Program-made: the position numbers and the translations under genes
NCBI GenBank assembly: GCA_921293015.1
Contig: OV121088.1
Span: 16,095,645-16,159,644, forward strand
DNA from: Phorcus lineatus
Taxonomy: Eukaryota > Mollusca > Gastropoda > Trochida > Trochidae
Direction: 5' to 3'
DNA: 64,000 nt
Shown here: positions 3,630 to 47,395 of the stretch, piece by piece
How the letters are laid out: each line of letters begins with the position of its first letter
Numbering within the stretch: the first letter of the stretch is position 1
Notes under the pieces: generated by a model
Told to the model about the DNA's origin: nothing
The model's database searches: none
The model's input: only the letters and a program-made list of their open reading frames with translations

Positions 3630-5790
3630 TTGATTAATGTCATATTATTCTAGTACTGCCTGTCAATCTATCCTTAATAAGCTCCCTGAGCAGACGATCG
3701 CAAAGTTAATCAAATCCCATGACACTTGCATATGCAGTCTCTAATTACTGAAGTAGTGCCATTTGATATTTCCAGGTTTGGCTCCCATGGCAACAATCCC
3801 GACTTCGGTGCTTTGACAGTTTAATTTCCGTGATGTAACTGCAATCATTTTCCTATTAGACGTCCTATTCATATATATATAAATATATATACATACATAT
3901 ATATATCGCCATGTACTATTTTGATTTTTTTTAAACAAGGCCATTGTAAAACATGTCATATGTCTTATGTGGAGTAATTTTTCGTATCAAAATATGACTA
4001 TTTTGTTCAGCATTAAAGGCAAATTGCTGATTTTGGAAACTTTTTTTCTTCTTGAAATTTTGATACATTAATCACAATCAAGTGATTTGCTTGTTAGTAT
4101 TTTTACCTACATTTGCCATATTTCATGAAGGGTAATAAGCACTAGTTTCATTTTACTTTATGCTTTCAAATAAGTAAGTTAAATTTAAAGAAGAAATAAA
4201 TGGAACAGGTAACAAAATTCAAATTCATATGAAACAGCTACCATTGACATTAGTACCTTTTAGCAATATCACTAAATGAAATTGTCATTTCACGTGAAAC
4301 CATCTCCTTCGCTTGCTAAGTTCACCCCAAACACGTGTCTCTTTGCACAACAATATCAGGAATCAAACTCCGGGGATTGAAAGAGAATACCCCTTGAGCG
4401 ATGAACGAATCACAATGGTTACCGCAATACAAATCACATTAATCTCTTCAAACAGAACATGAGAATACTTAATGGAAGCATAACAAAAGATGGCGAATAC
4501 GAATACCTCTGAAATAATTGCCATAAATGCAAGGAAATACTTGAAATTTTGGAAAACATGTTTTCGACTACCATGAACGTGTGTACGAAACTAGCGTAAT
4601 CGAGACAAGAATACATCATGAGGATGAACGTTTTGATTATCAGTAAAGATCAAGTAGGAAGTCTAAAATCAATGAAATTAGCAAATACGTAAAACAGTGA
4701 AATGTTTAGTGCACAAATGCCAAATAAATGATATATTTTAATAAATCTAAAAGCTTTTTGGAAAACAAGAGTTTATAAAAACTAGTACTCCAACAGAGTG
4801 TGAAATTTTATCAACATATATTCTTATACCCTGACACACCTGAGGCATATATCTAGTTTTGCCATCTGGAATATCATTGCAGTTTTAATTAGCTTCAATA
4901 GTTTCTCTTTTATATAAATTCACTGATTTCAACATAATATAAACGGTCGAAAGACATAGTAACTTTTTTCTTCCCATTGAGAATTTAAACTTTTTTTATT
5001 CGTTTTGGTCGTTTTATTGGATTTTTCATTCTAAACTGCATTTACATATTAAATATTTACAAATTACCTCATCATTAGTAATTTTATCGCATCTATGGTC
5101 ATCCTTTTCAATTTCTGTGCCAAATATACCATACTAATTGACAGAAATTGAAAATACATAACATGACTTTTCATAACAAGTAGTTTCCCTGTCTAAATTC
5201 AGAACTGGCAAATAAGCTTCACCTGCTAATTTTGGTAACACTCATGCAACATTGTTGTGGCCTCATTATGTAATTGCTTCTGTTTAAAAGGTCATAACGA
5301 TCGACCTCACCTTCATATTTCAAAATTCTGAGAGTGTTTTAAAAACTTGTTTATTTGAGGATAATATTATATCAGAACTTTTCGCTTACGTTTGAACAAC
5401 CGTAATCCTAGGCGCAGTATGATTAGGGTGACTGTAGTTAAGTAGATGCTGAAGGTTATTCTCGAAGCTTTCGAAATGTCATCCATGAGAATAACAGATG
5501 AAAGATGATCAAAGATGTCCTTTCCTTTTTCTGAAAATTATTATATAAATGTACAAGAATGAATAACAAAGGCTGGTTCGTGGCATTGATAGCCTTTTAT
5601 CGACATTACCTTAGGAACTGCTCTTTTGAGAAGCCGTTGGATATCTTATGTAGATATGGACCAATTTGAAGTTATGAGACAATAGTTTGAGGTATGAGTT
5701 CTTGTGGTATGCTTACGAATAGTGTTCTTTGAGACAGAAAATATTTTTGGCGTCAATGAGCCATTTAATTGGAATAATGCAATTCAACAT
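3630..5790 (+). repeat. Segmental duplication, block A
   Basis: A run of collinear similarity links this block to 11330-14060. Matching landmarks include 'CTTAATAAGCTCCCTGAGCA' (3671 and 11370), 'TCTCTAATTACTGAAGT' (3737 and 11434), 'GTAATTGCTTCTGTTT' (5269 and 13519), 'GATTAGGGTGACTGTAGTT' (5420 and 13689) and 'GAAGTTATGAGACAATAGT' (5671 and 13925). Divergence by eye is roughly a quarter of positions, so it is old. No conserved reading frame was found. A short (AT)n tract sits at about 3874-3906. Confidence 0.75.
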
Positions 5791-6992: not shown

Positions 6993-7380
6993 ATTACGAG
7001 TGACTGAGACTATAAAAGAAAAAGGCTTTAGCCAGGCAAGGCCATTTTATAGAGGGTTTATCAAATTTATCCTTCTTTATTTTGTGTGTGGCTAATTTTT
7101 TAAGATCTTATAAAACTCGGATCAATAAATTATAATGTTTGCTTGCATCTAGATGGAAGACATGAGAACATAGATGAATTGTTTGTACGTTTTTGGACAA
7201 CTAATAAATATCGAGCGATAAAGAGGCTGTACTGAGTGAATGAGTGAGTTATGTTTTGGAGTACATTCACCGTTCAAATGAGTATGACATACTGGCTCAG
7301 GATGAAATGGGAAGAAGCTGTTGACCTCTCAACAACCAGAAATAATATCGAGTAACTGTAACTGAGCAATATGTTAATGT
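6993..7380. other. Non-coding stretch
   Basis: No gene or repeat is recognised between the two hairpins. Confidence 0.35.
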
Positions 7381-7447
7381 GAGTTTACACCTTGGGTATT
7401 ATGATAATGTGAATGTCACATTATCATATTGCTCAAGGGGCAAACTC
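7381..7447. repeat. Small hairpin element
   Basis: Imperfect arms of 32 bases (GAGTTTAC... and ...CAAACTC) pair across a three-base loop, with a perfect inner stem 'ATGATAATGTGA'. No coding capacity. The family is unknown. Confidence 0.65.
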
Positions 7448-7553
7448 ATAAGAAAGTGATTGTGTCAATCAGAAGACCAACAAGGAAGAACCATGATGTC
7501 ACCTGATTAGCATAATTTACAATATATCGTTGTACACTATACGTATAATTTGT

Positions 7554-7561
7554 TATAAATA
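7554..7561 (+). promoter_or_regulatory. TATA-box-like motif upstream of hammerhead A
   Basis: The octamer TATAAATA lies about 32 bases upstream of the first stem of the hammerhead at 7593. In Penelope-like and retrozyme termini a promoter commonly precedes the ribozyme. In DNA this AT-rich the motif alone is weak evidence. Confidence 0.3.
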
Positions 7562-7592
7562 CGCTTGTAATGCGATGTTAACGATCATATAG

Positions 7593-7645
7593 TTTTATCC
7601 CTGATGAGTCAATACTATTGACGAAATACTAGTACTGGATTAAAA
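7593..7645 (+). ncRNA. Hammerhead ribozyme motif A (type I layout)
   Basis: The core CTGATGA is at 7601-7607. It is followed by a perfect six-pair stem II (7608-7613 with 7617-7622, loop ACT), GAAA at 7623-7626, and an eight-base palindrome TACTAGTA at 7627-7634 as helix III. Stem I pairs 7593-7600 with 7637-7645 and has one bulged T. The two bases before the cleavage site are CT where the consensus wants U then H, so the A15.1-U16.1 pair is lost and activity is probably reduced or absent. Short palindromic helix III is typical of the minimal hammerheads in Penelope-like elements and animal retrozymes, which are thought to act as dimers. Confidence 0.7.
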
Positions 7646-7735
7646 TGATTCTGCAAACGACTATGTGAAGTATGTTATATTTAATGTATATGTGAACTTG
7701 CGTTTGAACCAATTCAACTTTTCATATACATTTTA

Positions 7736-7775
7736 ATGGCTAGCGCTTTCAGCTCAACGAGCCTCTTCAGGCCAT
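7736..7775 (-). ncRNA. Hammerhead ribozyme motif B, at the 3' end of the Penelope-like element
   Basis: Read on the minus strand, stem I ATGGC (7775-7771) pairs with GCCAT (7740-7736). The core CTGAAGA (7770-7764) fits CUGANGA. Stem II has five pairs, one of them a G-U wobble, around loop GTT. GAAA is at 7750-7747, helix III is the palindrome GCGC, and the dinucleotide before cleavage is TA, which fits U-H. All conserved core bases are present. It lies in sense about 200 bases downstream of the end of the Penelope-like coding remnant, where such ribozymes are known in this class. Activity needs an assay; a minimal form like this may need dimerisation. Confidence 0.82.
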
Positions 7776-7822
7776 ACATACAACGGATAATGCGTTGCCA
7801 AGCAACGTCATCGTGTACAACA

Positions 7823-7981: not shown

Positions 7982-8571
7982 TTAAACTGAAAATTGCCTG
8001 TTTCCACACTTTGCTAGATGTTTACTCAATGGAATTGTACGGTTTTTAGGATGATTAATCTGAGATCTGTGTAAATTCATGCGTAATTTTAACTTCATTT
8101 CAGTTTTTCCAATGTATTTTTCATTGCACCCAGAGCATGTGAGGACATTAACAACATTTTTACGGTTACAATTAAGATTTTGTCTTACGGAATACACTTT
8201 ACTTTCATTGATGGTATTTTTTACATGTAAGACAGCGTGAATCACCGCATTTAGATACAGTTGGTTCTAACTCACTTGAATAAAACTTGGATGAAGTTAA
8301 TAACTTACGAAGATTTTTAGGTTGTTTAAGTCTGTTCACAATTTTTGATTTACAACTTTTTCCATTCTTTACTTTGATGTAAAATAGGTAAGTGTTTGTC
8401 AATTATTGCAGCAGCGCTATGATGGTTAGGGTTAAAGGTGGAAACCAACGGGACAATGTTTTTATCATACTGTTTATTAGATTTAGGATCTCTGAGGCGA
8501 CTTTGATCTAACGCAGCGGATTTCTGTACACTGTCTTGTATTAGAATTTCAGGATAGTTTTGTATCAACAA
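7982..8571 (-). pseudogene. Penelope-like linker and GIY-YIG endonuclease remnant
   Basis: Downstream of the RT, open pieces carry 'PLVSTFNPNH' and a cysteine-rich segment 'CGDSRCLTC', then the GIY-YIG nuclease with 'VLTCSGCNEKYIGKT'. In this class the nuclease nicks target DNA to prime reverse transcription. The CxxC just before YIG is shared by the Neptune/Penelope type. The frame is broken between the pieces. Confidence 0.82.
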
Positions 8572-8587
8572 AAATTCCTTGAGTTCT

Positions 8588-9525
8588 TTAAAACGTCCCC
8601 TTTTGTGCGTAATCTGTTACAATAGCACACATTCTTCTAGCGAGACAGTACGGGATGTTACGCTTAGTATGACTTAGATGACATGATTGAAAGTCCAGAT
8701 ATTGATGTGTATCTGTAGGTTTATAGTACAGATCCGTCTCGAACCGACCGTCTTCTTTTACAACCACGGCCACGTCCAAAAATATTCAAATTAGAGTCAC
8801 TTGTTTCCATAGTGAATTTTAAAGATGGACTTAAAGAGTTCAGGATACAATGCAACTTACACAGTTCCTCCTTTGTTCCCATAAATGGCATGAAACCGTC
8901 ATCCAAGAATCTTTTCAAATGCTGTTCAACATGCTCCTGCATATTCTGCCCCAGTGATTGTCCAACTTTCTCATAAAGGAAAATTTCAAGGTATCCCAAA
9001 ACCAGGGTTTTATATGTGGGAGCAAATTTAATTCCCATAACGACGCCTTTAGTTTGTGTGTAAAATGCACTATCAATATAAAATACATTATTGGATATTA
9101 CAAGATCAACAGCATCTAGAATAAATCTATCTGAAAACCTGTCGGCTAAGTCACATCTGCATTCGTTTAACCAATATTGTATATCTTCTAGACCCAATTG
9201 TTTATCAATGTTATTATACATGTTAACAATATCAAAACTAACTAAACTTGTACCTGGCGCAACATGTTTCGGTAGTTTACATAAGAAATCCAAACCATCT
9301 CTTAGATAACTTTTAACATTTAACACAGAGGCTTCAGAATGATATCTATGAACTTACTTGAGCTTTGTGTGGGACTCTCCGGGCCTCCTACTATAGGTCG
9401 GAAAGATAAATCTTTTTGGATAATTTTTATTTTTATGGATTTTGGGGAGTCCGTAAAATTTGGCTGTTTTTGCTTCATAATCACAGAGATAATTTTGCTC
9501 CTGGTCCGTAAGCTTCGGTCGTAGC
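8588..9525 (-). pseudogene. Penelope-like reverse transcriptase remnant
   Basis: This part holds the fingers and palm of a Penelope-type RT. The longest open piece (8721-9326) carries motif A aspartate in 'VSFDIVNMYNNID', motif B 'GVVMGIKFAP' and the catalytic 'LDD' of motif C. The piece at 8588-8779 continues with 'DLYYKPTDTHQYLDFQSC', a conserved stretch downstream of motif C in this family. The catalytic aspartates survive, but the frame is not continuous, so no working enzyme is expected. Confidence 0.85.
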
Positions 9526-9583
9526 ATGCAGTCTATATGTATGTAATGTATCTACGCAACATATGTATCTATGCAATGTATTG

Positions 9584-9612
9584 TGACGTCATAATTGTTA
9601 ATCATGACGTCA
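9584..9612. promoter_or_regulatory. Paired CRE-like sites upstream of hammerhead C
   Basis: Two perfect TGACGTCA octamers at 9584-9591 and 9605-9612 lie 37 and 16 bases before the first base of motif C. A similar site precedes motif B, which argues that the two ends belong to one element family. CREB/ATF binding is a possibility, not a demonstration. Confidence 0.45.
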
Positions 9613-9628
9613 TAACCGACTCAACGTC

Positions 9629-9669
9629 ATTCACCTGATGAGACCTTATGGTCGAAAGTACTTGTGAAT
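9629..9669 (+). ncRNA. Hammerhead ribozyme motif C (complete core)
   Basis: Stem I ATTCAC (9629-9634) pairs perfectly with GTGAAT (9664-9669). The core CTGATGA is at 9635-9641. Stem II GACC/GGTC closes a TTAT loop, GAAA is at 9654-9657, helix III is the palindrome GTAC, and the dinucleotide before cleavage is TT, a permitted U-H. Every conserved position of the hammerhead consensus is present. It faces away from the Penelope-like body, on the opposite strand to its RT. The short palindromic helix III is the minimal, possibly dimer-acting form known from Penelope-like elements. Confidence 0.88.
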
Positions 9670-10057
9670 AAATCATCTTGGTTTTCTTCAACAAATGTGT
9701 TTTTCTATGTATATATATATATATAAACACAACTGTATAGTTATGCTTTACGGTTCAAATAAAAAAGTACTAAACAAAGGTACTAACCAGACATGTGAAC
9801 ATTTACTGGAACTACTTTCTCGGTTCCCACAATGAATCTAGCGACGAATTTATATAAAATCTGACTTACCATAATCGTCTTACTTTTTTCAATTAAATCA
9901 AAAAAAAAAAGGTTGAACCTAATCTAATCATTTGCTAAATTTAAGATTAGTAAAACTTTAGAATTGGTTCGCCACCAATTTTTATAATTACTATACATAC
10001 CTTTATGTCTATGTATTCTTCGATATAAAATCTTCATTATTATTCCCCTTTCACGTA
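9670..10057. other. Non-coding stretch
   Basis: Contains a short (AT)n tract at about 9709-9725 and otherwise nothing recognisable. Confidence 0.4.
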
Positions 10058-10102
10058 TAGGGTTTAGGTTTAGGTTTAGGGTTAGGGTAAGGGTTAGGTT
10101 AG
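10058..10102. repeat. Short telomere-like tract
   Basis: About 45 bases of degenerate TTAGGG/TTTAGG units, for example 'GGTTTAGGTTTAGGTTTAGG', resemble an interstitial telomeric sequence. The canonical animal repeat is TTAGGG; half the units here are TTTAGG. It is too short to be a telomere. Confidence 0.6.
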
Positions 10103-22829: not shown

Positions 22830-23409
22830 TTTACCATATGAGAAGTAAATTGTAAATAGCAAACTGCTTTATTTACCATATGAGAAGTAAAAGGTTAATA
22901 GCAAACTTCTTTATTTACCATATGAGAAGTAAATGGTAAATAGCAAACTGCTTTATTTACCATATGAGAAGTAAATGGTAAATAGCAAACTGCTTTATTT
23001 ACCATATGAGAAGTAAATGGTAAATAGCAAACTGCTTTATTTACCATATGAGTGAGTGATTTGGGGTTTAACGCCGCTTTCAAGATTATTTCACTTATAT
23101 CGCGGTTGCTAGTATTATTGCAGGGAGAAAGCCCGCAACACCATTGTGGCTATGCATTGCGGTAAAACCTGCGAACATCGGCTGGACATAGCGAAAAAAC
23201 TACTAGTACTGCGCTAAAACTCAGTATAGCATTGCACCCAAACCTGACTACGTGTAGAACTCTTCTCTACTGCAGACGAAGTTGCCGAGACCCTGGCGGG
23301 ATTCAAACCACGGACCTCTTGATCCGAAGCCGAACGCGCTAACCACTGCGCTATCCCGCCCCCATTTACCATATGAGAAGTATATGGGAAATAGCAAACT
23401 GCTTAAATG
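22830..23409. repeat. 42-bp minisatellite interrupted by a SINE
   Basis: Units begin TTTACCATATGAGAAG and are 42 bases long, starting at 22830, 22872, 22914, 22956, 22998 and 23040. The sixth is cut after 13 bases by a SINE (23053-23363) and the array finishes at 23364-23409. Because 42 is a multiple of three, one minus-strand frame reads a 14-residue repeat; this is an artefact, not a gene. Confidence 0.93.
23053..23363 (-). mobile_element. tRNA-derived SINE, copy 2 (intact ends, 14-bp target duplication)
   Basis: The minus strand starts with a tRNA-like head that has A-box 'TAGCGCAGTGG' and B-box 'GGTTTGAATCC'. The anticodon-loop region 'GGCTTCGGATCA' resembles tRNA-Arg(TCG). The body is about 240 bases and ends in 'GCGGCGTTAAACCCC' and a (CTCA)n-like tail. 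The element is bounded by ATTTACCATATGAG at 23039-23052 and again at 23364-23377, a 14-bp target-site duplication inside a minisatellite unit. A RNA polymerase III transcript mobilised by a LINE is the known route for such elements. It is the best-preserved of the three copies here. Confidence 0.93.
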
Positions 23410-31746: not shown

Positions 31747-32486
31747 TTTATTACCCATATGGTTAATTATAAGCGGTGACATATTTTCAATATGAGCACA
31801 TGTGCACATATCACTTTTGCCTAGCAACGATTGTTACAGAGCGAGTTACCGTCTTACGTCGTCTGTGACGTCATAAAACCATTGTTCGTGACGTCACTGT
31901 AGCGGGCCGCCGGAAAGGAAGCAGGCCGCATTCCGTGTGTTTAAAATGAAATAGAATCGGAAATAAAGAAATTATAACCCTCGGAAGTGTGTCATATGAC
32001 TTTTACGAAACTCGTGCGAATTTGTGTATAACCCTCGCTCTCGCTCGGGTAATACAAAAATTCACACTCGTTTCGTAAAAGTCATATGACACACTTCCTC
32101 GGGTAATAATCTCTATTTATTACCCATATGGTTAATCATAAGTGAGGACATATTTTCAATATGATCACATGTGCACATATCACTTTTGCCTAGCAACGAT
32201 TGTTTCAGAGCGAGTTACCGTATTACGTCGTCTGTGACGTCATAAAACCATTGTTCGTGACGTCACTGTAGCGGGCCGCCGGAAAAGAAGCAGGCCGCAT
32301 TCCGTGTGTTTTAAATGAAATAGAATCGGTAATAAAGAAATTATAACCCTCGGAAATGTGTCATATGACTTTTACGAAACTCGTGCGAACTTGTGTATAA
32401 CCCTCGCTCTCGCTCGGGTTATACAAAAATTCGCACTCATTTCGTAAAAGTCATATGACACACTTCATCGGGTAATAATCTCTATA
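31747..32486. repeat. Two tandem 369-bp units, each with a long hairpin
   Basis: The unit starting near 31747 repeats at 32116 with about 95 percent identity by eye. Each has a GC-rich part with CRE-type TGACGTCA sites (for example 31867-31874) and 'GTAGCGGGCCGCCGGAAA'. A hairpin with arms of about 57 bases then follows (31974-32030 with 32050-32106, and again at about 32343-32477), with the loop sequence 'CCCTCGCTCTCGCTCGGG'. The start motif TTACCCATATGG recurs at both unit starts. It has no coding capacity. It looks like a foldback element that duplicated in tandem. Confidence 0.88.
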
Positions 32487-35400
32487 TATCTATGGAAAAA
32501 AATAACCCTAGATTGGAATAAGGTGACAAAATACTTACATGGTTTGTAACAGGTTCGTATAAGTCCTTGACCTGTAACCTTGAAGAGGAACATTTTACTA
32601 AAGGTTCTAGATTAACCATTAACCAATAAGTGTAGGCGTCCCAAAAATCTTGGTTGATACATAAGCCAAGGGTCATAACCACAGAAAGATTCATCACGCG
32701 CATCACTAATATATACCAAAGGCATGTTCCAAGTTCAAGGGTATAGAAACATCCACTATCCACTTTAAATTGGGTTGTCTTCGTTATTGAAATCAATCCA
32801 CTCATTGGTAAGGTACATCTTGGTGACTTTGCCATTAAGAACCAGCATGTTAAGTCTGTCTTTATCACTGTCAGTTTGACATTTTAATAGTTTCGACACC
32901 ACAAGGACACAAATCATGAACAAACACAATGGTTCATCTTTATTTTACCATGAAAATCACTACTCCACTACTTTTATTTATTATTTTTAACTATTGATAT
33001 GTGACATTAAGACCTTGTTAGTAGTGGATAAGACATTGAAATTAATTTCGATTTGAATATTGAGATCTTAAAACATATACAAATCAGTACATTTCAGTTT
33101 AACCATAATGTTCATAATATTTGCGGGGAATACGAATTCTTAATGATAAAAAACTCATAAAGTTTGAAATTAAAATTAAAAGTTAATAGATGAATATACA
33201 TTCTGCCCTGATCAAAACTTATGTCATCTTTCATCATAGTTTGTTTTCCTACTGAAAGAAACGTAATAATGTATCGTGCATAGTTTGATTAAATGTGTAT
33301 AAACATAACCCAGTCAAACCTCTTAAATCTATAAAATTTGACATTTTATTTAAAAGTTTTGTTTGAAAACATAATTATTTAAATGATTGAGTTAATAGCA
33401 CTGTCAAACATCATTTCAATGTCAACTAAATGTCAATGAAATACAATTGTATAAGTGAAGTTAGATATGTTCACTGTCTCATTGTAACACGAACTTTATA
33501 CTTAAACGGTTTTTCATCTCGTTAGAGATGTAATTAGAAGGTCATCTCTAGCGATAGAAATGTTAATTGACAATCAACAACTTTGGTGTCAGTAATAGCT
33601 ATCAATTATTCTATCACCGGCAACATCAGTAGACACGTTATAAAAGATTAAGTTGCTTTTACGTCAAGATTATACATCCATTATTATTCGTTCTGCGCAT
33701 TATCTTTTCGCTAATGCAATGTTTGTATACGATGTATTTAACTTCGCGTTCAATTAACATGTTAAGCGAATCCTTTTATCATAATGACTAGCTTTATGAC
33801 CAATTTCACAACCCAATCCGACAGGTACATGTATGTTTCAATGTATGTTTTCCATATTGCGAACATATTTTAATCAACATTCATCTCGTTTTAAGGAAGA
33901 CGGGTAGATAAAATGTTAGGGTCGATGGTGTCCTGTACTGTATGTTCATGATAGATAGATATTATTTATTTTCTCCATTTTGAAGATACAAATGAATATA
34001 GGTATAAATTCTGCATTTGGCAAAATATGTAAAATATATCATCATCGTCCTATATACTGGCAAAGGTAATGACATATAGGGTATCTAGAAGGTAATCGAA
34101 TAGTTTATAAAGTGAACATTGGATGTGGGGGCAAAATTGAATTACAATATCATATGCATATGTTCAAGAAATACATTCTTGTGATTGAACGAGTAAAGTG
34201 CTGACTCGTATCAGAAATCAATATCATAAGAACAATCAGAGTTAGCTAGTGGTTTTAGGGTTTTTGATAAGGTCACAGATATTGTAATGAATAGTATATT
34301 TTTAGAATACAAATAAAAAGTGATTTTCGTATGTAAAAAATATCAATGCGGAAGTAAATCTAGTAATAACTGCTAAAGTTATGTACAATTGTAAACATCT
34401 ATTAAGGAAGACATATGATTCTATTTATGTTCTACTTGCTCTGTTTACATAATAATTTTTAAAGTCCGTATTCTTAAAGGGTTGTTAGCAAACCATACTG
34501 ACATTCTTGGTGATTTATTAGACACGATTAGAGATTGATTTAATAAAGGTGTATATATTTGAACTTTATATAATAATTTGGAATTTTCCAATAGTCCTTT
34601 TCAATTCCCTTGAAACCTATTGACTAAAAATGTTAAAAAGACTACTGAAATGGAGTATCCATTGTTCAAATCTATTAATGGTTAATGACTCGGGTCCCAT
34701 TTATCAGATGAGGTGCTGCTAATCAATGTAAAGGTCAAACACAACAGACGGTTTACCGCTTGTTAACCTTTGCCTTAAATTGTCTTTAAAGATATGGAAT
34801 TAAGAAAAAAAGTTTGACATCTTTGCACTATTGCAAAACGCATACGCGGTTTTGTTCAGGCAAAAAGAGGTTATCAGGGAATAACCCTTAAAATTTAGAA
34901 ATTTTTCCTGTATTACATTGTGATTATACGAATCTTCGTTTCAGCATGTATTTTTTGTTGTGTTATACGCTCGATTTTTATAAGCATTTTTTATTGCTCC
35001 ATTTCACTGAACATATGAATGTGTGCGGTATAATCTTAAACTGTGGATATATCTTTCCTTGTTTTTCCTTCAAAGGCTACCACTCATTTCTTGTTTGCAT
35101 TTTGAAATAAACGATGTCAAAGCTATACATCACATTATGGGAACTGCACGATAATTACTGAATGAAGCGCAGACAAAATAAACTCCCTCTCTCATGGACA
35201 GATCAAAGTTATCTCTTCCATGACTTATGTCCACCATTCGATGGTGATTTGGGGTAAAATATGTTTACAACATTCACTAAGGAAGGATTGTGAGTATTGT
35301 TTTGTTATCAGGTTCAACTTAAATTATGATTATTTGAGAATTTTTCTCTTAGCTACTATGGATTGTAATGTTTAACATTTTACGCATGTTCTTACGTTCT

Positions 35401-42842: not shown

Positions 42843-44164
42843 TCAGCCATTGTTCGCTCTGGCACGTATCCACTTTTCCCTCTCTCTGAATAGGTCCACA
42901 ATAGTTTTCCATGAGTTGTTTTGATTTGTCAGAAGTTCAGACAGGGTAGCACTAGTGTCAAATGTCCTTGCATCTTGAAGTTTTTGACACTCAAAGATGA
43001 TATGGCGGATGGTTTCCTCCCCTGAGTCACACAGTAGACAGGCAGCACTGGTGGCTAGATTGAATTTGTGCAGAAAGCTTTGGCAAGGATACTGATTTAA
43101 CTTTATTCGGCTGCGGAGGACTTGATCCCTGCAATTCACATTTGTGTAACGAACACTGCTTGGTTTAGACTGTATTTGATGGTATTGTCTTCCGGTTAAC
43201 CCATTGTTCCAATTTTTACTACCCATAGCTGTTTGGTTGATGATTTCACTACACCCATTAACAGCGGAATGGTTACGACTGGTTTGTTGACTGGTCCACA
43301 GTTTGCCGCCATCTTGGCCAGGACATCTGCCTTTTCGTTCCCTGAGGTGCCAACATGGCTAGGGATCCATTGGAGAGTCACCATTCCTTTATTTGCTGAC
43401 AGCAGTTGATTGATCCTACTGCAGAGGTGGAAGTAGTCAGTTGGCTGATAGGATGAAAGGGTTTGCAGCGAGGACTTTGAGTCTGTGAGAATAACATATT
43501 TGGCATCAGGTGCATCTGCTGTTGTAATTGTTTGAAGAGCTCTTTCAATGGCAACTAGCTCTGCCTCTAAGATGGAACTGGGAGGAAGTGGGATAATGCA
43601 TTCTTCACCAGAGTAATGAAAATATATTCCCGCTCCTGCTCGCTCAGCAGAAAGGTCGAGAGAACCATCTGTGTAAATCTTTGAATGGTCCTGATACTTC
43701 TCATGAATGAGTTCCAGAGAGAGTTGATGCAATCGCTCTGGAATTTCCCTTTTGGATGCCTTGTCTGGGAGATTCAACTCTATGGAAGGAGGAGACCACA
43801 TCCATGGTGGTTGGTCATTCATGATGGCTGTTTGTTGGAAGTCAACTTTCTTTTTACTTGGTAGGACAATGTTCCTTTGCTTCAGAAGTAGCTCTGATCT
43901 CTGGAAGAAGCTATTGGGCGCTGGATTATCCTTGATGACTCCTGGTGACTCCTTTGGTTGGAAATGCTGTTTGATACGTTTGTTCAGGACAGCTGATTCA
44001 ATATAAAGATTCAAAGGGGTGATATCTGTTTCTATTTCAATTGCTGAGACTGGCGTTGTCTTTAGAGCACCACAAATCATCCTGAGGGCTGCATTTTGGA
44101 TTTTTTCAAGTTTGTTTTGATTACTTGAACTACATGAGGACCATATCTCCATGGCGTAGCACAT
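42843..44164 (-). pseudogene. LINE RNase H and C-terminal zinc-binding region
   Basis: RNase H motifs are complete: 'KIYTDGSLD' (D), 'SSILEAELVAIERAL' (E), 'YVILTDSKSSLQ' (D) and 'HVGTSGNEKADVLAKMA' (D). After a frame change near 43205 the frame continues with 'CRDQVLRSRIKLNQYPCQS' and a Cys/His motif 'CLLCDSGEETIRHIIFEC', ending at 42843. In I-type LINEs RNase H removes the RNA template. Confidence 0.9.
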
Positions 44165-44170
44165 CTTGCT

Positions 44171-45411
44171 TCAGAGATATGACAAATAGAATGTTCTTAA
44201 TGTAGAGAAATCTGCGCCCCAGTGCTGTGAGGCAATGGTTTTCATGAGGTTCAGCCTCTTGGTACAGGCCTCTACAAGGAGGTCGATGTGTTTTGACCAT
44301 GTAAGTGTGGGGTCCAGAGTGAGACCAAGAATTTTTGGATACTTGTTATACTTTATTTCTTGTCCCCCTAGTTTGATGCCCAGATTATCCACTGGAAGCT
44401 GGTGTTTATGTCTTCTTGTAATCACTGTATACTCTGTTTTCTCCCTCGATACTTTGAGATGCCCTCTTTGTGCTCATTTATCAATGGCTTCCATACACTG
44501 GTTGAGTGAGCTCACGATGTAATTGAGATCATGGTGAGTGATCAGGATTGAGCCGTCGTCAGCATAGCTGTAGACATGGATCAGGTACAATAAGAGGAAG
44601 GTCATACATGAGAATGTTAAAGATGGTTGGACTGAGAATGGCGCCTTGAGGAGTACCCGCTCTGATATTGAATTTTTCTGAAGTTGAATTTGCAACCTGA
44701 ACTTTGATGTATCTTTCATCTAGGAAGCTTCTAATGATCTTGAGCATGTGCCCCGAGATACCTATCGTTGCTGCTTTGGTGATCAAAACCTCCCACCATA
44801 CCTTGTCAAAAGCTCCTTCTAGGTCAATAAGAACAACAACAGTGTATTCCTTGTTGAATAGACCTAAATGACATTGCTCAGTGATCTTCATGAGCGTATC
44901 AATTGTTCCTGATTTTGCACGGAATCCGCATTGAGAGTGATGAAATATCTTGTCACTGTGGATCTTCCAGTTTAATCTCTTGTTGATTAGTCTTTCAAAG
45001 AGTTTGCTTTAAACCATGATGTCAGTGCTACTGGACGATATGATTTTACTTTGGATTTGTCTTTTGATGGTTTCAGAAGAGGTATAATTTTGCTGATCTT
45101 CCAATCACTTGGGTAGTTCCCCTCTCTCCAAATCTCATTGAAGAGGTTAAGGATCAACTTTTTCCCAGGTGGGGGTAGGTCTGCAAGCATCTGATTATGA
45201 ATTCTGTCTTCGCCTGTGGCTGAATTTTTCAATTCTGATAGAGTTCTGTAGGTGTGAAAGATGGGTCACACTCATCATCCATTTCACAGAGAATATCTAA
45301 GGAGTTTTGGGCCATCTCTTCAATACCATTGAATTCAGAAGTAGTTGTTACATGTGCATCGATCATTACATTTCTTGGCATAGTGGGCGGCAAAGAGAGC
45401 TGCTTGGTCAT
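44171..45411 (-). pseudogene. LINE reverse transcriptase
   Basis: Fragments in several frames show the RT motifs in order: 'KIIPLLKPSKDKSK' and 'SYRPVALTS', motif A 'VVLIDLEGAFDKVWW', 'GTPQGAILSPTIFNI' (motif B), 'YADDGSILI' (motif C with both catalytic aspartates) and 'KILGLTLDPTLTWSKHI' (thumb-side motif). Catalytic residues survive, but several frame changes and two in-frame stops abolish the protein. Ordinary neutral decay after insertion explains this. Confidence 0.92.
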
Positions 45412-47395
45412 TACTTTCAGTTATTATTGCCCCTTCATGTTCTATGGCTGCTTTTTGTCTTGTATGGTATCCATTTATAGCCTTGATTTTCTTCCAGATC
45501 ACGTTGGATGGTGTGTTCAGATTGAGGGATGATACAAATTCTCTGAAGCCAGTGCGTTTTGTTTGCATAATCAGTTTGGTGACTTTGGCCTGCTGACTCT
45601 TGTAGTTTATCATGTCCTTGATGGTTCGTGAACGTCTAAACTTTCTTCTGTATTGTCTTTTGGTTCTCTTTTCTTTAGCAATTTCCGAGTTCCACCATGG
45701 GGTTGGGGGGTGCTTGTGCTGTTTTGTGTTTGGATAACTTTCCTCTGTGGCTTCTATGATACTGGCAGTTACAGCAGTGACTTTGTCCTCAAGGCTCATA
45801 TTATTCTCTCGGAGGCTGATCAAGTTGTCAACTGCTTTATGGTACATCACAGATGTGAATAATTCTCTATTGGCTTTTTTGATGTTCCATCTGGGCTGAT
45901 GTGTACTTTTGAAGGTAGAACCTGGACGTTCAAGACTTGTGAGTATAGGAAAATGATCACTTTTGATTGTGTCATCAAGAACTTTCCAATCTGTTTCTCT
46001 GGCTCTCAAATCAGGAGCCACAATAGTGAGATCCATAGAGTCTGTCTCTCTTGAAGAATGACTTTGGAACGTGTGATCTGTTCCATTTAGGATGATAAGA
46101 TTATGCTCATTTGTCCAGTCCAGAACTTTACTGCCTGATGAATTAGTTTTGGAACTTCCCCATAATGTGTGTTTGGCATTGAAATCACCTACAATCACGG
46201 AATGTGATTGAAGAGCTATATCATCAAGTTCTGTTGTTATTTTGCTGCATCCGTCTCTAGCATAGAGTGATGTCACATTAATGCTGAATTGTTTGTTGAA
46301 AGTTACTTTGCAGCTGATGTATTCCAGGATTGGAGAATAGTAAGTATTTACTTCTGATATTCCTAGATGGTTGCGAGCTAGAATACATACTCCTCCACCT
46401 TCTTTGTTTGGCCTTTCAAAGTTGTGGCATGTATAGCCCTTGATGAAATCTTGGCTATGTGTATCATTTCTTAGTCTTGTTTCACATATGCAGGCAACAT
46501 CGATGTTGTTCTCCCACAGCAAAATTTTCAGTTCATCTGTCTTCTTGTTGATGGATTGAGCATTCCACTGCAAGATTCGTACCAAAGAATCACCTTCTTC
46601 ACAGTTGGTGGAATCAGATACATTATCAGATGGTGAACATGGATTAGGGTCATCAGTTTGAATGACGTTTGACTGATCATCAATGGAGATTGAACTGACT
46701 AGTACTTTAGATTTGGTGGGGTCAGTCTTCTTTTGTCTTTTGGCACGTTTTTTAACTCTGTCAGGAAAGTCACATCCAAGGGTGCAGAATGTTTTTGATT
46801 TCATCATTTTACAATGTTCTTTCATTCTGGAAAATAATTCAACACTTGCTTGTCTATTCTTGCACCATATTTCTATTCTTTTGCTCCTCTTGATTCCTCG
46901 AAGGAAGATCTGATGGCTGGATTCAACATGAAAGGTGTTTCTGATTTCTTTCACCAAGGATTGCCCAGCTTTGTGTTCTTTGGTGTAATTCCAGATAATG
47001 ACCTTTAGTTTATTTGGGTAGGTTGAATTCAAAGGACGAAGAGTTGTTGACTTTTTCTGGTTAACCTCCTTCTTTTCAGTTGGCTTGTTATCCTGAGGAT
47101 TAGGAGTATCATGGTTACATTGTTTCTCATGAGTCACCAGGCAGGCTCTGTAGGAGTATTTCTTACCGCATCTTGAACATTGGTGTTTAGCTACAGTTGG
47201 AATTGTTGGGTTCTTGCAAGTAGCAACATGTTTCACATACATAGCTTTCCTTGTGTAGACCTTTGAACATTTGGCACAAGTGTTGGTAGTGGTAGCTGAT
47301 TTATCACAGTGATCCCCACTTTTATCACTATGCGGACCTTGTTTATCCGGGCAACGTCCAAGCTGGCATGAATTCTATTTCTTGTTCTTCATCAT
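45335..47395 (-). pseudogene. LINE N-terminal zinc-finger region and AP-endonuclease
   Basis: The likely original start is the ATG at 47395-47393: it is in frame with the long open frame but is cut at codon 7 by TAG. Downstream of that stop the frame holds two C2H-type fingers, 'CAKCSKVYTRKAMYVKHVATC' in part upstream of the first later ATG (47242), and 'CSRCGKKYSYRACLVTHEKQC' just after it. Counting from that later ATG, the endonuclease spans about residues 222-435 with Asn227 ('LQWNAQS'), Glu254 ('CICETRL'), Asp353/Asn355 ('VGDFNAKH') and Asp429-His430 ('SDHFPIL'), so the nuclease active site is intact. The domain nicks target DNA to prime reverse transcription. Confidence 0.9.

Follow-up and report, generated by a model that had tools for sequence, protein, structure and literature searches.

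The window analysed here is a 64,000-nt stretch of Phorcus lineatus DNA. Three hammerhead-bearing repeats share one 2.3-kb part of it, together with the remains of a Penelope-like element (PLE):

9629..9669, plus strand: minimal type I hammerhead ribozyme (F1), with the predicted cut between 9663 and 9664 and helix III, AGTACT, at 9657-9662.
~9519..9711, plus strand: very probably a solo, 5ʹ-truncated pLTR of a young PLE family, also called F1 (from BLAST to 30 copies, with edges set by eye).
9605..9632, plus strand: TGACGTCA (9605-9612), which we take to be CRE-like, and TCATTC (9627-9632, with A at 9629), which we take to be Inr-like; presumably the promoter and RNA start.
7982..9515, minus strand: old, frameshifted, 5ʹ-truncated PLE, with reverse transcriptase pieces at 9515-8353 (3ʹ edge ~8353) and a GIY-YIG endonuclease at 8266-7982.
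7736..7775, minus strand: another complete hammerhead (F2), oriented like the old PLE and ~210 bp beyond its endonuclease frame.
~7593..7642, plus strand: third hammerhead (F3), damaged at the cut site, inside a repeat at ~7413-7731.

Elsewhere in the window are LINE-type frames for an endonuclease (635 aa) and an RNase H (322 aa) at 43196-47242 on the minus strand, a 369-bp tandem duplication at 31747-32489 (two copies, 95% matches), and a tRNA match at 23294-23360 on the minus strand that is just over the Rfam cut-off (34.4 vs 29 bits).

Judged by its sequence, the motif at 9629-9669 is a real, intact minimal type I hammerhead with a predicted cleavage site. Its 41 bases read ATTCAC (9629-9634), CTGATGA (9635-9641), GACC TTAT GGTC (9642-9653), GAA (9654-9656), AGTACT (9657-9662), T (9663) and GTGAAT (9664-9669). 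The core is complete (CUGANGA, GAA and U-H before the cut), and of the three helices the first has six pairs and the second four, as the original prediction stated; helix I is open, and the layout agrees with the cut that had been placed after T9663. Helix III is palindromic, as claimed, but it has six bases rather than four when A15.1-U16.1 is counted. Since AGTACT has no loop, a monomer fold that includes helix III was rejected. This helix needs two molecules or two copies to form, as in the dimer-type minimal hammerheads already published, and the palindrome points to the dimeric action that had been suggested. Folding energy does not discriminate for a dimer: 373 of 500 shuffles match the dimer gain, and 43 of 500 match the energy of the dimer.

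A strict full-fold scan of both strands found two motifs in the window, F1 on the plus strand and a second complete hammerhead at 7775-7736 on the minus strand that the first reading had missed. As a measure of chance, 1500 windows simulated with matching dinucleotide frequencies gave none on either strand. A looser class of fold occurred three times in the 1500 simulated windows, and the loosest 216 times (0.144 per window). Rfam gave no match at the F1 site at the gathering threshold, and reported no hammerhead at E<=10 in scans of 64 kb and 1.3 kb. With a 101-base input, RF00163 (Hammerhead_1) aligns to 9629-9669 end to end (27.1 bits, E 3.2e-5), below its gathering score of 34 bits. The covariance check that had been proposed for this motif therefore returned a full-length match and a sub-threshold score, the latter being the first of the two outcomes that were together set to refute the prediction. 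The low score may reflect the lack of non-conserved helix III bases in minimal PLE variants, a lack described for published minimal PLE hammerheads (PMC7761336).

The PLE on the minus strand matches the GIY-YIG (E 0.0023) and RVT_1 (E 0.041) profiles, both below the curated cut-offs. In a tblastn search with the F1 protein, its pieces are 36-65% identical (best E 4e-132). Searches with its reverse transcriptase piece gave no relatives among viral contigs, no match to a solved structure at E<=1, and a single match in phages, with an E of 10. The F2 hammerhead reads ATGGC-CTGAAGA-GGCTC(GTT)GAGCT-GAA-AGCGCT-A|GCCAT, with AGCGCT as helix III, and its motif recurs in other loci. At the F3 cut site the window has CT and two other loci, L008 and L083, have TC, which gives a perfect 10-nt helix III palindrome. 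Rfam reports F3 as a weak type III match (7589-7632, 15.2 bits, E 1.3); RF00163 run on 7570-7800 (231 bases) matched neither F2 nor F3. An imperfect inverted repeat at 7380-7448 (81% over 69 bp) adjoins the F3 repeat or lies within it. F1 and F2 each have their own PLE coding. For F3, the only PLE coding seen in L008 and L083 is that of F1, in L008.

A search of the 958-Mb assembly with the pattern CTGATGAN{8,16}CGAAAGTACTTG gave 261 exact matches, and the reversed pattern, used as control, gave none; the F1 motif is therefore a real repeated unit. Among the first 30 copies fetched, many match window positions 9521-9711/9725 by BLAST at 97-100%, and others are older or match just 9626-9711. 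The (TA)n run 3ʹ of the window pLTR, up to ~9725, is a typical target. Ten of these 30 loci, two of which (L005 and L006) overlap, have PLE endonuclease (GIY-YIG) coding on the 5ʹ side of the ribozyme and in sense with it; an eleventh locus, L031, has an endonuclease match on the opposite strand, beside an F2 piece. The F1 endonuclease is 58% identical to that of the adjoining old PLE over 72 aa, and ~58% identical in most of these loci. In locus L088, two direct pLTR ribozymes at a distance of 3.2 kb flank an uninterrupted open stretch of 802 aa. This stretch matches GIY-YIG (E 1.1e-10) and RVT_1 (E 2.7e-5, below the curated cut-off), and starts ~650 bases 3ʹ of the upstream ribozyme; an overlapping frame in another phase starts nearer. 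Between the upstream pLTR and this stretch, at ~4580-4690, there is a (TA)n run as well as a tailed piece of the F1 3ʹ end in inverted orientation. The long copy in L088 may be a composite.

The F1 hammerhead thus lies in a pLTR, in sense with reverse transcriptase and GIY-YIG coding, in its family; the window copy is without coding. The identities between copies and the F1 coding found elsewhere argue that the window copy is a solo, 5ʹ-truncated F1 pLTR beside the remains of another family, in the opposite orientation. We are confident that the F1 motif is the pLTR hammerhead of a young endonuclease-bearing PLE family, present here as a solo truncated copy. The association with a PLE that had been noted at this site stands insofar as the motif is a type I minimal hammerhead of the PLE kind that adjoins a PLE, but it is not part of that element.

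The hammerhead fold recurs with different sequences. The fetched loci were scanned for hammerheads with a short helix III and at least four helix I, three helix II and two helix III pairs. Apart from the F1 reference type, this gave 19 complete-hammerhead rows, every one of them with a perfect palindrome as helix III. Across six types helix III reads AGTACT, AGCGCT (twice), ACCGGT, ATACTAGTAT and ATATGCATAT, that is, five distinct palindromes. When the helices of the six types are compared using hand-set segments, one of the innermost four helix I pairs is always C-G, and the other three vary but stay paired in every type. The core-adjacent pair of helix II is unpaired in three of six types, the next two are paired in all six, and the fourth in five. 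Since the scan itself requires pairs, the evidence here is limited to the changes in sequence and to helix III pairs beyond the required two. In the fetched loci, the F1, F2, F4 and F5 hammerheads lie in the same sense as PLE coding and 3ʹ of it, ~110-180 bp from its end. A related pattern occurs in three viral contigs, none of them among the complete folds reported by the scan. In locus L099 (~140-200), a different hammerhead (CTAAC...GTTAG) is fused directly to an F1 copy that starts at the equivalent of 9636.

Where do F1 copies begin? We used two samples. Sample A was chosen by the ribozyme: of 99 copies listed from outside the window, 97 satisfied the alignment rule, two overlapping loci having been dropped. 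Sample B was selected through the 26 bases at 9670-9695, and hence blind to the 5ʹ side; it comprises 96 of the 231 copies in the genome (100 listed, minus the window copy and three not fetched). In sample B, our first boundary method placed 22 of the 96 5ʹ ends at 9624-9637, eight at 9500-9589, eight at 9590-9623, seven at 9638-9659, seven at 9660-9669 and 44 further upstream. For the 52 ends at 9500-9670, the density of the densest 13-bp interval was reached by none of 20000 uniform draws. A second method gave 22, 8, 8, 6 and 8 ends in the same order of bins (the last being 9660-9670). By this method, nine ends fall at 9629-9631 and 15 at 9627-9633. Exactly at the cut site, 9664, there are one or two ends of 96 (one placed at 9655 by the first method), and two or three at 9664-9665. 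The interval 9660-9670 (8/96) is denser in ends than 9638-9659, so cleavage products may be rare templates. In sample A, 25 of 97 ends fall in the 9624-9637 peak, and the ribozyme-based choice hides ends further 3ʹ.

Head-to-head pairs hold 10 of the 22 peak ends in sample B; without such pairs, 12 of 81 ends are in the peak. Head-to-head palindromic pairs of F1 pLTR pieces occur in L012, L050, L059, L016, L094 and L040, most of them joined at or near the ribozyme. The 3ʹ ends of F1 copies form two classes ~57 nt apart, at ~9711 (74/131, untailed) and ~9768 (56/131, tailed), and TA-rich DNA lies directly 3ʹ of 89 of 131 copies. F1 copies thus have both the optional 3ʹ tail and the AT-rich target of a PLE. 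For F2, five of 12 aligned pieces (besides the reference) begin 10-21 nt 5ʹ of the core, with helix I beginning 5 nt before it, and these ends point the same way as those of F1; 10 of 12 pieces end 3ʹ at either of two places 56 nt apart.

An alternative explanation for the plus-strand hammerhead is that it belongs to an inverted pLTR of the adjoining minus-strand PLE, in the usual head-to-head Penelope layout. The order and orientation fit, and 5ʹ-truncated Penelopes with inverted pLTRs have been published (PMC3846280). The upstream parts of the two pLTRs also show a weak likeness, equalled in two of 300 shuffles, but the F2 and F3 stretches scored one in 300 in the same test, so this likeness is not specific. 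However, outside the core the two hammerheads have little in common, the neighbouring PLE is heavily decayed and the plus-strand unit is not, and copies that match this unit at 97-100% have an endonuclease with only 58% identity to the neighbour's. This reading is largely refuted, and we consider it very unlikely. Slightly more improbable still is that F1 is a non-autonomous element of the retrozyme type that spreads by circular RNA; retrozymes are mentioned in the original prediction, and our data do not favour this reading. F1 does have a type I hammerhead and many short copies, and animal retrozymes are described as small and non-coding (PMC7229834), with tandem repeats of ~150-450 bp carrying a hammerhead. 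Against this, Tandem Repeats Finder shows no array at the motif within the window, the F1 family includes copies with PLE coding (the endonuclease upstream in 10 of the first 30), and short copies mostly begin near helix I, whereas few begin at the cut site, as copies of a processed circle would be expected to do.

If F1 is the pLTR of a PLE, what sets the 5ʹ ends of its copies? The peak lies at the first bases of helix I and at the Inr-like A, which fits run-off of reverse transcription at an RNA start. As judged solely from the ends of genomic copies, this suggests that F1 transcripts start at the ribozyme and that the usual template would be uncleaved RNA. Another explanation, which we regard as possible but unlikely, is that reverse transcriptase stops or switches at the ribozyme structure, with no RNA start there. 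In several loci, among them L012, L050 and L016, the junction of a head-to-head pair falls at the ribozyme or within it, which is consistent with such events, as are the seven of 22 peak ends that are not at 9627-9633 and mostly fall within the core. However, the enzyme would meet the structure at its 3ʹ edge and should then stop at 9664-9669, whereas 15 of 22 peak ends are at 9627-9633, the far edge of the ribozyme.

We propose that the F1 pLTR promotes an RNA starting at ~9629, with the ribozyme as its 5ʹ end. Two such RNAs, or two pLTRs on one readthrough RNA, would pair via AGUACU, and the paired RNA would be cut after U9663, splitting a 35-nt leader from a 5ʹ-OH body. Reverse transcription would begin inside the RNA at positions equivalent to 9711 or 9768 and would often reach the 5ʹ end of an RNA that is uncleaved. 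The outcome would be mini-copies of ~80-140 bp holding little besides a ribozyme; a share of the fetched loci are short copies holding just a ribozyme, as predicted (~83-140 bp). More generally, PLE transcripts may begin exactly with the hammerhead, and some of the minimal hammerheads dispersed through animal genomes may be mini-copies left by internally primed reverse transcription that ran off uncleaved RNA, a proposal that in our judgement stands evenly balanced. If it is true, ribozyme cleavage acts against, or apart from, use of the RNA as template. The 5ʹ ends of genomic copies would be a free record of the template RNA, one in which the first ribozyme bases are marked more than the cut site. 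Since these ends favour the ribozyme start over the cut site, the question can be tested by RNA 5ʹ ends.

Minimal PLE hammerheads are type I, with helix III missing or very short, are found in pLTRs or dispersed in non-coding DNA, and are thought to act as dimers (PMC7761336); both the minimal form and dimeric action are thus already published (PMC7761336, PMC7229834). F1 has the same form and contexts as those of Cervera and de la Pena (2014) and Lunse et al. (2017), as represented in citing papers. It differs from the published examples, as far as the available accounts describe them, in its own sequences, in the occurrence of six types in one genome, and in copy 5ʹ ends that peak at helix I. 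This 5ʹ-end pattern was absent from the titles and abstract openings in the literature searched. The kind of hammerhead is therefore known, and our analysis suggests that the 5ʹ-end pattern may be a modest new twist.

In Terminons and telomeric PLEs the endonuclease is dispensable and telomeric repeats lie directly 3ʹ of the hammerhead (PMC6431247), whereas the F1 family has a GIY-YIG endonuclease, and telomere-like repeats are ~390 bp away. The latter are a short imperfect TTAGGG/TTTAGG run at 10058-10102 of the window. Like the Penelope of Adineta vaga, F1 has direct and inverted pLTRs, an optional tail, 5ʹ-truncated copies and head-to-head palindromes (PMC3846280); the word hammerhead is absent from the available text of that paper. 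F1 also resembles the Poseidon PLE of Anolis carolinensis (PAc), a GIY-YIG PLE with a hammerhead at the element start, a two-site 3ʹ pattern with a tail, and AT-rich targets (PMC11167929). The PAc ORF starts inside the ribozyme, whereas the open stretch in L088 starts well after the upstream one. No PAc RNA read has its start or end at the cut site, and the PAc ribozyme cuts only when the PLE protein is added (PMC11167929); hence, F1 RNA may not cut by itself. Furthermore, PAc ribozyme mutants insert equally well in vitro, with uncleaved RNA serving as template, and two internal reverse transcription start sites bound the PAc “tail” (PMC11167929), which the two 3ʹ classes of F1 fit.
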